DNA of 10,440 nt from Solirubrobacteraceae bacterium (GTDB taxonomy: Bacteria; Actinomycetota; Thermoleophilia; Solirubrobacterales; Solirubrobacteraceae): assembly GCA_025935735.1 (NCBI GenBank), contig JAICUS010000169.1, positions 1 to 10,440 of the forward strand, read 5' to 3'. How positions within the stretch are numbered: position 1 is the first letter of the stretch; each line of letters begins with the position of its first letter. Positions 4,078 through 10,440 of this stretch are shown here, piece by piece. Position numbers and translations under genes: made by a program. The notes below the pieces were generated by a model. That model made no database searches. It saw only the letters and a list, made by a program, of their open reading frames with translations, and had not been told where the DNA came from.

Positions 4078-5243
4078 GACGACTCCGGACTGCATCGACT
4101 CGACACCTCCTCGCCTTCGTCGCCGCGGTGGTCGTGCTGGCCGCCGGCGCGGCGGTGGCCCGCGCCGCGCTGGACGGCGCCTCCGCCCCGCCGGCCAAGC
4201 CGCTCGACCGCGCCGTCTATGACGCGGTGAGCGCGCCCGACGTCGCGGGCATCACCGCGCGCATCCACTTCACCAACGACCTGCTGCCGTCCGGCTCGCT
4301 GCCCGAGGGCAGCACCTCGCCGCTGATCAGCGGCGCCGACGGCCGCCTGTGGCTCGGCAACGACGGCCAGCTGCGCCTCGAGCTGCAGTCGGACTCCGGC
4401 GACGCCCAGATCGTGGCCGACGGCCACGGCTTCATGGTCTACGACGCGACCTCGAACACCGCCTACACCGGCTCGCTCTCCGAGGAGCAGCCGCAGAAGC
4501 AGCAGGCGGATCAGAAGCCGACGCTCGCGGGCGTCGACAAGGCGCTGGCCCACCTCGAGCAGATGTGGACGCTGTCCGGCGCGCAGCCGGGCACGACCGC
4601 CGACCGGCCCAGCTACACCGTCCGCATCTCGCCCAAGGACGACGGCGGGCTGCTCGGCGCGGCCGAGCTGGCCTGGGACTCCGCCCACGGCGTGCCGCTG
4701 CGCGCCGCGGTCTACGCCCAGGGCCAGGCCACGCCGGTGCTCGAGCTCAAGGCCACGCACGTCGCCTACGGCTCGCTCCCGGCCTCGACGTTCACCACCA
4801 AGGCGCCGGCCGGCGCGAAGGTGACGCAGATCTCGCAGGCCGCGCCGCCCGCCGCGGGGAAGCACTCCTCCCCCTCCGACGTGACCGGCGCCGCCGCGGT
4901 CGCCAAGGCCGTCGACTTCCGGCTCGCCGCGCCCAAGACGCTGGCCGGGCTGCCGCTCAAGCAGGTGCGGCTGGTGAAGTCGCACGACGGCACGGGCGCG
5001 ATCAGCACCTACGGCCAGGGCCTGGGGGCGATCATCGTCCTGCAGTCCAAGGCCGGCAAGGGCGGCGAGAACCCGCTCTCCCAGCTGCGGCTCCCGCGGA
5101 TCGCCATCGGCAACGCGACCGGCTCCGAGCTCGCCACCGCGCTCGGCACGGTGCTGATCTTCCAGCGCGCCGGGGTGAGCTACGTGGTGGCCGGCTCGGT
5201 GCCGCCGCTGGCGGCGGAGAACGCGGCGCGCGGTCTGCGATGA
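4074..5243 (+). CDS. Exported LolA/RseB-like protein with C-terminal DUF4367-like domain
   Basis: A 389-residue protein with a basic N-terminus (MRRLRTASTRH) and one hydrophobic segment (about 11-32), so it is secreted or anchored by its N-terminus. There is no lipobox cysteine. The middle (about 45-265) resembles LolA/RseB-type beta folds: DGRLWLGNDGQLRLELQS, DAQIVADGHGFMVYD and SNTAYTGSL follow the pattern of lipoprotein-carrier-like proteins. A glutamine-rich linker follows near 140-150. The C-terminal part (about 280-389) resembles the DUF4367 domain, with DFRLAAPKTLAGLPL, STYGQGLGAIIVLQS and a final SYVVAGSVPPLAAE. Members of this group are thought to bind lipids or report envelope stress; the function here is inferred. 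Its start overlaps the kinase stop (ATGA 4074-4077) and its stop overlaps the ABC ATPase start, placing it between sensor and transporter. Confidence 0.72.
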   Translation: MRRLRTASTRHLLAFVAAVVVLAAGAAVARAALDGASAPPAKPLDRAVYDAVSAPDVAGITARIHFTNDLLPSGSLPEGSTSPLISGADGRLWLGNDGQLRLELQSDSGDAQIVADGHGFMVYDATSNTAYTGSLSEEQPQKQQADQKPTLAGVDKALAHLEQMWTLSGAQPGTTADRPSYTVRISPKDDGGLLGAAELAWDSAHGVPLRAAVYAQGQATPVLELKATHVAYGSLPASTFTTKAPAGAKVTQISQAAPPAAGKHSSPSDVTGAAAVAKAVDFRLAAPKTLAGLPLKQVRLVKSHDGTGAISTYGQGLGAIIVLQSKAGKGGENPLSQLRLPRIAIGNATGSELATALGTVLIFQRAGVSYVVAGSVPPLAAENAARGLR

Positions 5244-6256: not shown

Positions 6257-7101
6257 GCGCCGTCGCCGTCCCCGCACAGTTCAAGCGCCCCGGCGTGGGC
6301 ACCGCCTACGCCTGGGAGCTGCGCAAGCTGCGCGCCCAGAAGCGCACGTACCTCGGCCTCGGCGCCGCGTTCGTGTTCCCGCTGATCTTCGTCTTCGCCC
6401 TGCTGCTGGGCGACGGCGGTCCGAACGACATCCCGTTCGGCCGCTACGTGCGCGAGTCCGGCCTGGCCATCCCCCTGGTCGCGCTGATCTTCGGCGCGAT
6501 CTGGTTCTTCCCGCTCGTCACGGCGCTGGTGGCCGGCGACATCGTGGCCGCCGAGGACAGTCAAGGGACGCTGAAGACCATCCTCACCCGCTCGGTCGAC
6601 CGCCAGCAGATCTTCGCCGCCAAGGCGTTCGCCGCGCTCACCTACGGGCTCGCCGCGCTGGTGATCTACGTCGGCGTCGGCCTGGTCGCCGGCGGCATCG
6701 CCTGGGGGTTCAACGGGCTGCCGTCGCTGTCGGGCACCTACGTGACCGTGGGGCGCGGGCTCGTCCTGCTGGGCGCCAGCACCGCGGCCTACTTCATGCC
6801 GACGATCGCCGTCGCCTCGATCGCGCTGCTGCTCTCCACCGTGACCCGCAACTCCGCCGCCGCGGTGGTGGGGACGCTGATGATCTCGCTGGTCATGCAG
6901 CTGATCGGGGTCATCTCTGCGCTCGACTTCCTGCACCCCTACCTGCTGTCCACGCAGTTCAACGCCTGGCAGGGGCTGCTGCGCGACCCGATCGACTGGG
7001 CGCCGGTGATCCGCGGCGCCTGGGTGTCAGCGCTGTACGCGTGGCCCTGCCTGGGCGTGGCCTTCATGGTGTTCCTGCGGCGCGACGTGGCGGGGGGCTA
7101 A
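6253..7101 (+). CDS. ABC-2 family transporter permease
   Basis: A 282-residue polytopic membrane protein, partner of the ATPase it overlaps. About six hydrophobic segments are visible: residues 33-53 ([20 protein letters not shown]), 71-95 (starting [16 protein letters not shown]), about 127-152, about 171-193, about 198-222 and about 255-275. Between the second and third lies the typical ABC-2 cytosolic motif [19 protein letters not shown] (102-120) followed by [10 protein letters not shown], the coupling-type loop seen in BcrB/NatB-like exporters. The cytosolic start [16 protein letters not shown] is also typical. The GTG start at 6253 is supported by GGAG at 6242-6245 and the GTGA overlap. 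The 3' end overlaps the tail of the convergent ribbon-helix-helix gene by 75 bases, with no room for an ordinary terminator. Substrate unknown. Confidence 0.92.
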
Positions 7102-7242
7102 GCGGCCGGCCTTCCGCGCCTGTTCCGCCAGCAGGTACTCGATCTGCGCGTTGATCGAGCGCAGGTCGTCGTCGGCCCAGCGGCGCACGGCCTCGAACAC
7201 CTCGGGGCTGAGCCGGAGCAGGAACCGCTTCGCATCCGCCAT
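7027..7242 (-). CDS. Arc-type ribbon-helix-helix DNA-binding protein
   Basis: A 71-residue protein starting at ATG 7242. The strand KRFLLRL (5-11), helix [16 protein letters not shown] (12-26) and helix [19 protein letters not shown] (29-46) form a full Arc/MetJ-type ribbon-helix-helix fold. NAQIEYLL is the most typical block of the Arc group. Such proteins act as dimers or tetramers on palindromic operators and are often autoregulators or antitoxins. The start overlaps the SPFH stop by one base (TGATG at 7240-7244), so the two genes are translationally coupled. Residues after about 47 ([20 protein letters not shown] and on) are encoded entirely inside the 3' end of the convergent permease gene and look like read-through sequence rather than a domain. 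No toxin gene adjoins it, so regulation of the neighbouring palindrome at 8107-8120 is the likeliest role, by inference. Confidence 0.8.
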
Positions 7243-8102
7243 CAGGTGTACAGCGAGCCGGTGTTCAGGACCGGCGTCGGCGCGTGGTCGCCCGAGAGCA
7301 CGACCATGAGGTTCGACACCATCGCCGCCTTGCGCTCGGGGTCGAGGTCGACGAGGTCGCTGTCGGCGAGCTGGGCCAGCGCCATCTGGACGATCCCGAC
7401 CGCGCCGGCGACCATCGTCCGGCGGGCGGCGAGGATCGCCTCCGCCTGCTGGCGGCGCAGCATCACCTCGGCGATCTCCGCCGCGTACGCGAGGTGGGTG
7501 AGGCGGGTCTCCAGCACCTCGATGCCGGCGGTCTGGAGCCGGGCCTGGAGCTCGGCGTGCAGGCTCTCCAGCACCTCGCCGGCGTTCCCGCGCAGCGACA
7601 CGGCCGCCGCGTCGTAGTCGTCGTAGGGGTACGTGCTCGCGAGGTGGCGCAACGCCGTCTCGCTCTGCACGACCACGTAGCGCTCGAACTCGTCGACGTC
7701 GAAGATCGCCTTCGCGGTGTCGGTGACCCGCCAGACCACGACCGCCGCGATCTCGATCGGGTTGCCGCTGGCGTCGTTGACCTTGATCCGCTCGCTCTGG
7801 AAGTTGCGCACGCGCAGCGAGACGGTCACGCGCCAGAACGTCGTGAACGGGTTCACCCACCACGGCCCCGGCCCGGTGACCGTGCCGGTGTAGCGGCCGA
7901 ACAGGATCAGCGCCCGCGACGAGTTGGGCTGGACGAACACGAAGCCCTTCAGGCCGAGCGCGGCGAGCACGAGCACGACCGCGCCGGGGATCGTCACCCC
8001 GGTGAGCACCAGCGCGACGCCGGCCGCGAGCACCAGCACGGCGACGGCGGCCGCCGGGGCGCCCGGGATGGCGCGGGCGGAATGTTGATGGTGGGTCGCG
8101 AT
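7242..8102 (-). CDS. SPFH/band-7 (stomatin-prohibitin-like) membrane protein, start uncertain
   Basis: A membrane-anchored SPFH protein. A hydrophobic hairpin near the N-terminus is followed by [20 protein letters not shown], the [13 protein letters not shown] loop, and the band-7 core with [38 protein letters not shown] and [19 protein letters not shown], then the coiled helical region rich in Glu/Arg/Ala ([20 protein letters not shown]). These proteins form oligomers in membrane microdomains. The first usual start codon is GTG 8039 (265 residues), but it would cut the first membrane segment. The frame continues upstream without a stop to 8117, and starting at 8102 gives [16 protein letters not shown], where RAIPG is, from memory, common near the N-terminus of this family. 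That codon is ATC, six bases after a TATCAT on this strand. I therefore annotate the 286-residue form as more likely, with a non-standard, mutated or misread start. It is coupled to the Arc-type gene and divergent from an ABC exporter. Confidence 0.8.
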
Positions 8103-8113
8103 ATTCCGATGAT
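8085..8113 (+). promoter_or_regulatory. Alternative -35/-10 promoter reading for the second ABC operon
   Basis: TTGATG (8085-8090) and GATGAT (8108-8113) are separated by 17 bases and each matches its consensus at four of six positions. This is an alternative to the TATCAT -10 at 8113-8118. The start site would then lie near 8120, only a few bases before ATG 8125. In either reading the palindrome at 8107-8120 overlaps the -10 element, so a bound protein would block the promoter. Confidence 0.3.
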
Positions 8114-8120
8114 ATCATCG
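8107..8120. promoter_or_regulatory. Perfect 14-bp palindrome: divergent promoter/operator
   Basis: CGATGATATCATCG equals its own reverse complement and sits between the divergent SPFH and ABC genes. It contains TATCAT on both strands (8113-8118 on +, 8114-8109 on -), each matching the -10 consensus at five of six positions. On + the ATG at 8125 follows after six bases; on - the ATC codon at 8102 in the SPFH frame follows after six bases. A further GATAT at 8100-8104 is offset by 11 bases from the GATAT inside the palindrome. No Shine-Dalgarno precedes 8125. The arrangement suggests divergent leaderless promoters overlapping an operator. The binding protein is unknown; the Arc-type protein at 7027-7242 is the local candidate, and a PadR- or MarR-type regulator elsewhere is an alternative. 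Confidence 0.6.
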
Positions 8121-8124
8121 TGAC

Positions 8125-9030
8125 ATGACGGAAGCGGCGCTGGAGGTCCACGGGCTGGGCAAGCGCTTCGGCGAGCGCGTTGCCTTCGCCGACGTCTCGT
8201 TCGCGCTCGGCTACGGCGAGGTGTTCGGCTTCCTCGGCCCCAACGGCGCGGGCAAGACGACCACCGTCCGGACGCTGGGCACGCTGCTCGCGCCGAGCAC
8301 CGGCTCGGCCACGGTCGCGGGCATCCCGCTGGCGCCCGAGAACGGCGTGGAGATCCGCCGGCGGATCGCGATCATGCCCGAGTCCCCCGGCCTGTACGAG
8401 CGCCTCACGGTGCGCGAGAACCTCGAGTGCTTCGCCGATCTGTACGAGTCGCGCGGCGGCCGGATCGGGCGCGCGCTGGAGGCGGCCGGGCTGGCCGACC
8501 GGGCCGGCGACCGCTGCGGCACGCTGTCCAAGGGCCTGCGCCAGCGGGTCGCACTCGCCCGCGCCCTGCTCAGCGACCCGCGGGTGCTGTTCCTCGACGA
8601 GCCGACCGCCGGGCTGGACCCGGTCGCGGCCCACGAGGTGCACGAGCTGATCGCGGAGCTGCGGCGCGACGGCGTGACGATCTTCCTCACCACGCACCGG
8701 CTGGAGGAGGCCGAGCGGCTGTGCGACCGCGTGGCGATCCTCAACACCACGCTGCGGACGATCGGCCGCCCGGACGAGCTGCGCGACCGGCTGTTCGCGC
8801 GCACGCTGACCGTCCGCACCCGCGAGCCGGTCCCCGGGGAGGTCTTCGCCGGGCTGCCGGCCGTCGAGGACTGGCGGGCCGACGGCACCGGGTACCGGCT
8901 GAGCGTGACCGACGCGGACGTCGCCGCCCCGGCCGTCACCCGCGCGCTGGTGGCGGCCGGCGCCGACGTGCTGGCGCTGGCCGAGGACCGCCGCTCGCTC
9001 GAGGACGTCTACCTGGAGCTGGTCGGATGA
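8125..9030 (+). CDS. ABC transporter ATP-binding protein (ABC-2 exporter type)
   Basis: A 301-residue ATPase. It has Walker [10 protein letters not shown] (38-46, Lys44), the Q-loop region [17 protein letters not shown] in which Glu86 replaces the usual Gln (a form I recall in NatA-like ATPases), signature LSKGLRQRV (134-142), Walker B VLFLDEP with Asp158-Glu159, D-loop TAGLDP and switch His191 in [14 protein letters not shown]-terminal domain of about 90 residues follows and ends in [14 protein letters not shown], the usual end of this class. The ATG at 8125 is chosen because the conserved first strand ([13 protein letters not shown]) begins directly after it and because it lies six bases after TATCAT in the palindrome. 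The stop overlaps the permease start (ATGA 9027-9030). It should drive export through that permease; the substrate is unknown. It is only distantly similar to the ATPase at 5240-6256, so a recent duplication is unlikely. Confidence 0.95.
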
Positions 9031-9728
9031 GCCGCCGGCGCGTGCGGGCGATCGCGCGCAAGGAGCTGCGCGAGATCCGCCACAACCGCTCGCTGCTGGT
9101 GGGGATGGCGATCCTGCCGCTGCTGTTCCTGATCCAGCCGCTCGTGGCGGTGTTCGCCGTGCCCGCGGGCGGCGCGGGGCAGCTGCGCCACGAGGACGAG
9201 CTCATCTACATGCTCGGGATCCCGGCGCTGGTGCCGGCGCTGCTCGCCGCCTATGCGGTGGTCGGCGAGCGCGCCCAGGGGACGCTCGAGCCGCTGCTGA
9301 CCACGCCGATCCGCCGCGAGGAGCTGCTGGTGGGCAAGGCGCTGGCCGTGCTCGGGCCGGCGGTCGCCGTCTCCTACGCGGTCTTCGGGCTCTTCCTCGC
9401 CGCCGTGGCGCTCTTCGCCCGGACGGGGGTGGCCGGCGCGCTGATCCGCGGCCCCGGCCTCGCCACCCAGGTGCTGCTCACGCCGCTGGTCACCGGCTGG
9501 TCGATGTGGCTCGCCATGGCGATCTCCTCGCGCGCGGGCGACATCCGGGTGGCGCAGCAGCTCAGCGTGCTCGCGGCCGCGCCGACGGTCGCGGTGGCCG
9601 CGCTGGTCGCCTTCGGGACGATCCCGGCGAGCTTAGGGCTGGTCGCGGCGCTGCTGGTCCTGAACGGCCTCGGCTGGCGGCTGACCGTCGCCGCCTTCGA
9701 CCGCGAGCGGCTGGTTCAGCGCCTGTAG
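9027..9728 (+). CDS. ABC-2 family transporter permease
   Basis: A 233-residue membrane protein coupled to the ATPase it overlaps (ATGA), with GGAG eight bases before its ATG. The cytosolic start [19 protein letters not shown] is typical of ABC-2 permeases, as is the motif [20 protein letters not shown] followed by [15 protein letters not shown]. Hydrophobic segments are visible around residues 24-46, 60-80, 108-133, 145-170 (with [19 protein letters not shown]) and 180-220, so about five or six spans. The protein is short for the family but has no obvious break. Its 3' end overlaps the convergent small exported-protein gene by 13 bases. Together with 8125-9030 it forms an exporter in divergent arrangement with the SPFH gene; transport of a membrane-active compound or lipid is a guess from that context. 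Confidence 0.9.
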
Positions 9729-10311: not shown

Positions 10312-10440
10312 GTGCTCGCGCTGACCGCCCGCACCGCCGCGCTGACCGAGGTGCCCGACCCGGCGCCGGCGCCCGATCGGGCGCTGGTGCGGGTGCGGGC
10401 GACGTCGCTCAACCGCGGCGAGGTGCTCGACCTGGCGGAC
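10312..10440 (+). CDS. MDR-family zinc-type alcohol dehydrogenase/quinone oxidoreductase (partial)
   Basis: The first 43 codons of a gene that runs off the window. The N-terminal pattern, a short strand, then [25 protein letters not shown], is the GroES-like start of medium-chain dehydrogenase/reductases; [14 protein letters not shown] is the typical block where the family has an Asn or Cys near the active site. Asn-Arg at this place favours the quinone-oxidoreductase or zinc-binding-dehydrogenase-like branch. The Rossmann domain and any zinc ligands are outside the window, so substrate and cofactor are unknown. Start is GTG 10312, directly following a -10-like TAGCGT. Confidence 0.75.

Follow-up and report, generated by a model that had tools for sequence, protein, structure and literature searches.

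The stretch of DNA analyzed here, referred to as the window, comprises 10,440 nucleotides of a contig assigned to the Solirubrobacteraceae. Its minus strand carries a gene for an SPFH/Band 7 membrane protein followed by one for a small Arc-like protein, and two ABC-2 exporter genes lie divergently on the plus strand. The features of the locus are as follows.

7027-7242, minus strand: Arc-like ribbon-helix-helix (RHH) protein of 71 amino acids, its ATG overlapping the SPFH stop codon (Pfam PF03869)
7242-8102, minus strand: SPFH/Band 7 membrane protein frame, 286 codons from ATC plus stop (Pfam PF01145)
8037-8039, minus strand: GTG, first standard start in the SPFH frame, truncating the N-terminus; the start called for homologue P0001
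8085-8093, minus strand: N-terminal H-x-Q motif, conserved in the alignment of homologues and lying upstream of GTG 8039
8100-8102, minus strand: ATC in the SPFH start-codon slot, in the same register as the ATG of relative L001
8107-8120, both strands: 14-bp palindrome CGATGATATCATCG with core TGATATCA, the proposed SPFH-Arc operator, from sequence and locus comparison
8109-8117, minus strand: putative extended -10 TGA-TATCAT of the SPFH gene, in the register of L001, where ATG lies six bases past TATCAT
8110-8118, plus strand: putative extended -10 TGA-TATCAT of the ABC gene (TGN-TANNNT six bases before ATG 8125)
8115-8117, minus strand: in-frame TGA, the upstream bound of the SPFH frame, from sequence
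8116-8118, minus strand: ATG inside the palindrome in another frame, reading MISSEYRD... out of the SPFH frame; a rival start, not favoured
8125-9030, plus strand: ABC-2 exporter ATPase (DrrA-like), divergent from SPFH (PF00005, PF13732)
9027-9728, plus strand: ABC-2 permease, its start overlapping the ATPase stop (PF12679)

The SPFH protein scored 91.2 bits against Pfam Band_7 (PF01145; cut-off 23.6) and belongs to this family, its frame, bounded upstream by the TGA at 8117-8115, passing ATC 8102 and ending with the stop codon at 7244-7242. The 71 residue protein passed the Pfam Arc cut-off narrowly (PF03869; 22.4 bits against 20.4), and its first 49 residues had no match in NCBIfam. On the plus strand ATG 8125 is well supported as the ATPase start because the four closest non-identical homologues (P0122-P0125, 90-98% identical) share the N-terminus MTxxALEV with the window protein.

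For comparison of loci, the best 80 of 150 SPFH relatives among species genomes were kept together with 30 further SPFH loci from 232 genomes of the order to which the genome of L001 belongs; omission of five repeats of species-genome loci and 11 loci below E 1e-15 left 95, window included. A later class-level search of 399 genomes, with matches at E 1e-60 or better in 23 and none closer than those of the order, yielded loci (L111-L124) that do not enter the 95-locus counts. In a plasmid collection 852 records resembled the query DNA (60-90%), none of them over 80% of its length. An Arc-like frame (phmmer E 0.01 or better, within 900 bases) was located downstream of SPFH in 90 of the 95 loci; each of the other five has at most 141 bases of downstream sequence, and an Arc-like gene follows SPFH at every locus with more than that. 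An ABC exporter is also a frequent neighbour, either divergent (approximately 70% identity in L005; 36-41% in L003, L084, L085 and L086) or downstream on the same strand (73% in L002; approximately 30-36% at many Streptomyces loci). SPFH genes are known from pairs with NfeD, such as QmcA/YbbJ and Atu3772/Atu3773, and as far as the available text of PMC8656257 describes these, the present locus resembles them in placing an SPFH protein in a two-gene unit and differs in that the second gene encodes a DNA-binding protein of the Arc-like kind and an ABC exporter is often close by. At locus L096 (G120:C239:932-1228) the SPFH match has 85-87% identity and extends only from about residue 188 to 286, with non-matching sequence upstream, indicating a truncated gene or a chimeric assembly.

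The intergenic palindrome and its recurrence at SPFH loci

Read base by base, 8107-8120 is CGATGATATCATCG and identical to its own reverse complement, confirming the perfect 14-bp palindrome with TATCAT on both strands described in the first-pass annotation. Also in base-for-base agreement with that description, TATCAT at 8113-8118 of the plus strand is followed by CGTGAC and ATG 8125, and TATCAT at 8114-8109 of the minus strand by CGGAAT and the ATC at 8102-8100. Palindrome length was dropped as evidence, as perfect 14-bp palindromes are expected in the window by chance: at least one was present in 198 of 200 dinucleotide shuffles, and the window has six perfect palindromes of at least 14 bases versus a mean of 4.06 starting positions in the shuffles. 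Others in the window include those at 4318-4335 (18 bases), 8352-8367 (16) and 10369-10384 (16). The AT-rich core TGATATCA occurs once in the window versus a mean of 0.01 in shuffles, and the arrangement TANNNT-6-ATG, counted on both strands together, once versus 0.165, making it less rare than the core.

At each locus the position corresponding to residue 1 of the window protein was located, and a zone reaching from 250 bases upstream of it to 60 bases downstream was searched. The core TGATATCA was present around the SPFH start in 73 of the 95 loci (window included), many of which are Streptomyces and hence not independent; outside these zones three exact copies were found in 676,575 bases of the same loci. 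Core-bearing loci carry the labels Streptomyces, Solirubrobacterales, Chloroflexi, Gemmatimonadetes and proteobacteria, and the commonest letters of the site across loci are AAAGTGATATCACTT. The 22 loci lacking an exact core comprise 15 with a one-mismatch match, a number obtained without a chance control and made up of TGCTATCA or TGTTATCA in 12 cases, and seven with none, among them L096, where the N-terminal part of the SPFH gene is missing. It is as a conserved site, and not as a 14-mer, that the palindrome goes beyond chance.

When 11 whole genomes chosen from among the relatives were scanned for RTGATATCAY, 19 sites were found, one to three per genome, compared with two for the same pattern read backwards. 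The SPFH promoter carries such a site in nine of the 11, and variants of it in the other two (G004 and G005); in G004 the RTGATATCAY site is on the SPFH contig, 1.7 kb upstream of the gene. Seven of the ten sites away from SPFH were fetched (L126, L131, L132, L135, L137 and L140, at position 1501, and L138, at position 528), and none of these loci had an SPFH or Arc match; L140 had one ABC match at 37%, and the sites of L131 and L138 are near reading frames resembling lipoproteins by eye. These sites are possible further members of a small regulon.

Autorepressed operons are built in this way, with a palindromic site at the promoter and an RHH gene among their genes. Arc, CopG and ParD are examples of autoregulated RHH repressor operons, and the present case, known from sequence, is alike in having a small Arc-like protein in the operon and a palindromic site at its promoter, both of them conserved (90 and 73 of 95 loci, respectively), and unlike in that the partner gene encodes an SPFH membrane protein rather than a toxin or phage gene. 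The core looks like an operator through which a widespread SPFH-Arc operon regulates itself, with the Arc-like protein as the presumed ligand of the site. Conservation of the core at SPFH-Arc promoters is absent from the first-pass annotation and would explain the palindromic form of the site. Backed by many genomes, the candidate operator and its operon are the strongest result of this analysis, and among the matches listed in a PMC full-text search no paper on an SPFH-Arc operator was found.

Promoter layout, start slot and SPFH N-terminus

The palindrome is probably also the promoter core for both genes, TGATATCAT supplying an extended -10 to each of two divergent leaderless promoters, so that operator and -10 elements overlap. 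No -35 element was apparent on either strand, with at most two of six matches to TTGACA at spacers of 15-20, and a scan of 8000-8250 for the sigma-70 consensus with a -35 16-18 bases before the -10 found no promoter. The same interval contained no terminator consensus, and a search of 7950-8250 against Rfam gave nothing at E 0.1 or better. In M. tuberculosis, according to the available text of PMC3898074, 73% of primary starts have a TANNNT centred 7-12 bases before them and lack a -35 motif, and extended -10 promoters are stronger; TGATATCAT and the missing -35 in the window fit this pattern by analogy. Set against the leaderless promoters of M. tuberculosis and M. smegmatis as the available text of PMC3898074 and PMC4633059 presents them, the window is alike in its TANNNT distance, the lack of a recognisable -35 and a start at the predicted +1, with full agreement on the ABC side, where TATCAT, six bases and ATG 8125 give a leaderless layout in sequence. 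It is unlike them in that the -10 lies within a conserved palindrome serving both strands, and in that the SPFH side, where the leaderless spacing recurs, has ATC 8102 rather than ATG or GTG at the predicted +1. Since TGATATCAT, six bases and ATG form a leaderless layout on the same palindrome, the ABC exporter may be under the same repressor.

Spacing was read in 11 close relatives of 55-78% identity with readable upstream DNA. In six of these TANNNT is followed after exactly six bases by an in-frame start codon (ATG in L001; GTG in L004, L084, L085, L086 and L097) and in five it is not. In-frame spacings of 5, 7 and 8 did not occur, a spacing of 4 was seen twice (L002 and L098), spacing 0, an ATG directly after the box, four times, and spacing 1 three times; other in-frame values up to 14 gave at most two each, and in the two other frames spacings of 4-8 gave at most one each. 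No TANNNT lies 4-8 bases before an in-frame ATG or GTG in L003, L005 and L089. A Shine-Dalgarno-like stretch is present at the candidate start of L089, L098 and all six more distant relatives examined (L090-L095), and as the latter have no TANNNT at spacings of 4-8 before ATG or GTG, the leaderless layout is limited to the close group. Several relatives appear to start on the operator itself (GTG ATA TC...), as with GTG ATA TCA in L002 and ATG ATA TCA in L098, so that in this group the operator often overlaps the start region.

The window has one in-frame place six bases past a TANNNT, and the codon there is ATC. In L001 TGATATCATCG is followed by four bases and ATG, with the same in-frame TGA, and in the window TGATATCATCG is followed by four bases and ATC; no other codon from the TGA to the H-x-Q motif is a single base away from ATG. 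Given the six-base spacing in six of 11 relatives and the ATG of L001 in the same register, ATC on this sequence evidence fills the SPFH start slot. TANNNT, six bases and an in-frame ATC also occur in two of 17 other loci (L003 and L091), where standard starts lie downstream, showing that chance can produce such a place. The divergent leaderless promoter put forward in the first-pass annotation is supported in its spacing, found at the starts of six of 11 close relatives, and in its placing of ATC 8102 at the SPFH start position.

Alignment of the SPFH protein with its 120 best homologues (clusters) bears on where translation should begin. Of the 104 homologues that cover window residues H4 and Q6, 98 have the H and 103 the Q, and of the 105 that cover A9, 100 have the A; the codons of all three lie within 8093-8076, upstream of GTG 8039. 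A start at GTG 8039 therefore truncates the family N-terminus, upholding the first-pass annotation in its view that the SPFH N-terminus lies upstream of that codon. As called, 15 of the 120 clusters, P0001 among them, have no residue upstream of the motif. For P0011 (90% identical, on a contig of 1,628 bases) an internal start call was seen by eye, the alignment having scattered its first residues, and P0040, called as MIANGGGGVAAAA..., by eye has an operator-type start (MIA) and no H-x-Q motif. A protein search with SPFH residues 1-45, a query unable to show or exclude longer close homologues, gave 3,671 candidates and none at E 0.1 or better. The earlier argument that third-position G/C marks coding at 8040-8099 proved weak and was dropped, as first codon positions of 8102-8040 are nearly as G/C-rich (17 of 21) as third positions (18 of 21); five of the first eight codons from ATC end in G/C, and the firm evidence for the frame is homology.

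Rare residues at strongly conserved columns number two in the window and two in P0001, within a family range of 0-6, and apart from one residue the SPFH protein is without sign of decay, which fits recent loss of the start and equally continued translation. The exception is residue 77 (7874-7872, minus strand), which is G in the window and E in P0001; among the 120 homologues it is E in 77, D in 28, Q in nine and G in none.

Readings of the ATC codon and proposed mechanism

A natural substitution in the start slot is the likeliest origin of the ATC because leaderless starts in M. smegmatis need ATG or GTG. In the available text of Shell et al. (PMC4633059) ATG or GTG at the 5' end is necessary and sufficient for leaderless translation, CTG and TTG are poor, and the negative control was ATC; ATT is mentioned solely as one of the codons that start leadered messages, and a selection returned leaderless RTG in all but 547 of 343,242 reads. 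In vitro, according to the available text of PMC10158994, two mismatched initiator anticodons yielded no product on AUC at IF3 up to 1.5 uM, a result that does not cover AUC with the natural CAU anticodon. In PMC full text no literature joining 'leaderless' and 'AUC start codon' was found, and mitochondrial genomes predominate among the matches listed for ATC or AUC start codons. Since the actinobacterial tests needed ATG or GTG with ATC as negative control, efficient AUC initiation is unsupported, and of the two options left by the first-pass annotation, AUC initiation or a changed or misread ATG, a changed start is the likelier.

That AUC is nonetheless a working leaderless start in this lineage, at a reduced but useful level, is unlikely, given the M. 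smegmatis and in vitro results. In its favour ATC is the only codon of the slot one base from ATG, six bases past the -10 and in the register of the L001 ATG, the N-terminal motif is intact, and the missing start may be shared. P0001, on a contig of 7,312 bases and from a 90%-identity cluster of 11 sequences, differs from the window at one residue of 265 and is called from the same internal GTG as window GTG 8039, and the window ABC protein occurs letter for letter on two contigs, the longest of 10,440 bases (P0121). This suggests a second assembly also without a standard SPFH start, although P0001 was compared as a protein and may share its sample with the window, and the second contig of P0121 may be the one that carries P0001. 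The internal calls of P0001 and P0011 fit, without showing, a shared loss of the standard start, and hint that the window is not alone in lacking it and that its replacement perhaps works; an AUC start that functions would gain in probability from such a common loss. An extension, that a subclade of Solirubrobacterales-like bacteria starts SPFH at AUC on leaderless messages, perhaps keeping the operon low because the promoter core is also the repressor's operator, is unlikely.

The same call from GTG 8039 makes an error in base calling or assembly at the start slot very unlikely, as a separate, non-identical record then appears to lack the start too, though ATC is one base from a standard start and the G at residue 77 is seen in none of 120 homologues. 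Initiation at GTG 8039 as the normal start, with the upstream codons now a 5' untranslated stretch, is quite unlikely. The minus strand from 8117 to GTG 8039 contains no ATG, GTG, TTG or CTG in any frame, so that this GTG is the first standard start after the -10, and the 15 clusters without a residue upstream of the motif and P0040 without the motif speak for such a start; it would, however, remove a motif kept in 98-103 of 104 homologues, it begins by eye inside the first membrane segment, and the preceding 20 bases lack a Shine-Dalgarno-like stretch. Relatives that seem to start on the operator, L002 and L098, find a parallel in the ATG ATA TCA at ATG 8118 of the window, from which an indel or ribosomal frameshift could lead into the SPFH frame. 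This is highly improbable: no TANNNT is present among hexamers 3-9 bases before this ATG, the codon would be absent from a message starting after TATCAT, and the frame change is a second oddity.

The favoured account, a self-repressed SPFH-Arc operator with divergent leaderless -10s and a lineage-specific ATC substitution lowering full-length SPFH, is given a probability of roughly 0.55 as a whole. Building on the observed site conservation and Arc neighbour, the palindrome would be an operator bound, we infer, by the Arc-like RHH protein encoded downstream of SPFH, binding of which would cause the operon to repress itself. In this lineage operator and -10 region appear to be one and the same place and, since TGATATCAT reads as an extended -10 in either direction, two divergent messages are predicted, with starts at approximately 8125 (ABC, ATG) and 8102 (SPFH). 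The observed frame, N-terminal motif and spacing point to ATC in a slot where close relatives have ATG or GTG, most likely through a natural lineage-specific substitution. Production of full-length SPFH would then fall or cease, and what remained would be trace initiation at AUC at most, or a shorter protein from GTG 8039. Because the Arc-like gene begins on the SPFH stop codon, the repressor too could become scarcer, through lost coupling, if SPFH is poorly translated.

For annotators, the first standard start, GTG 8039, removes a family-conserved motif. The ATC slot represents a natural test of the strictness of leaderless starts outside mycobacteria, and the recurrent site with its Arc neighbour predicts a self-repressed membrane-protein operon.
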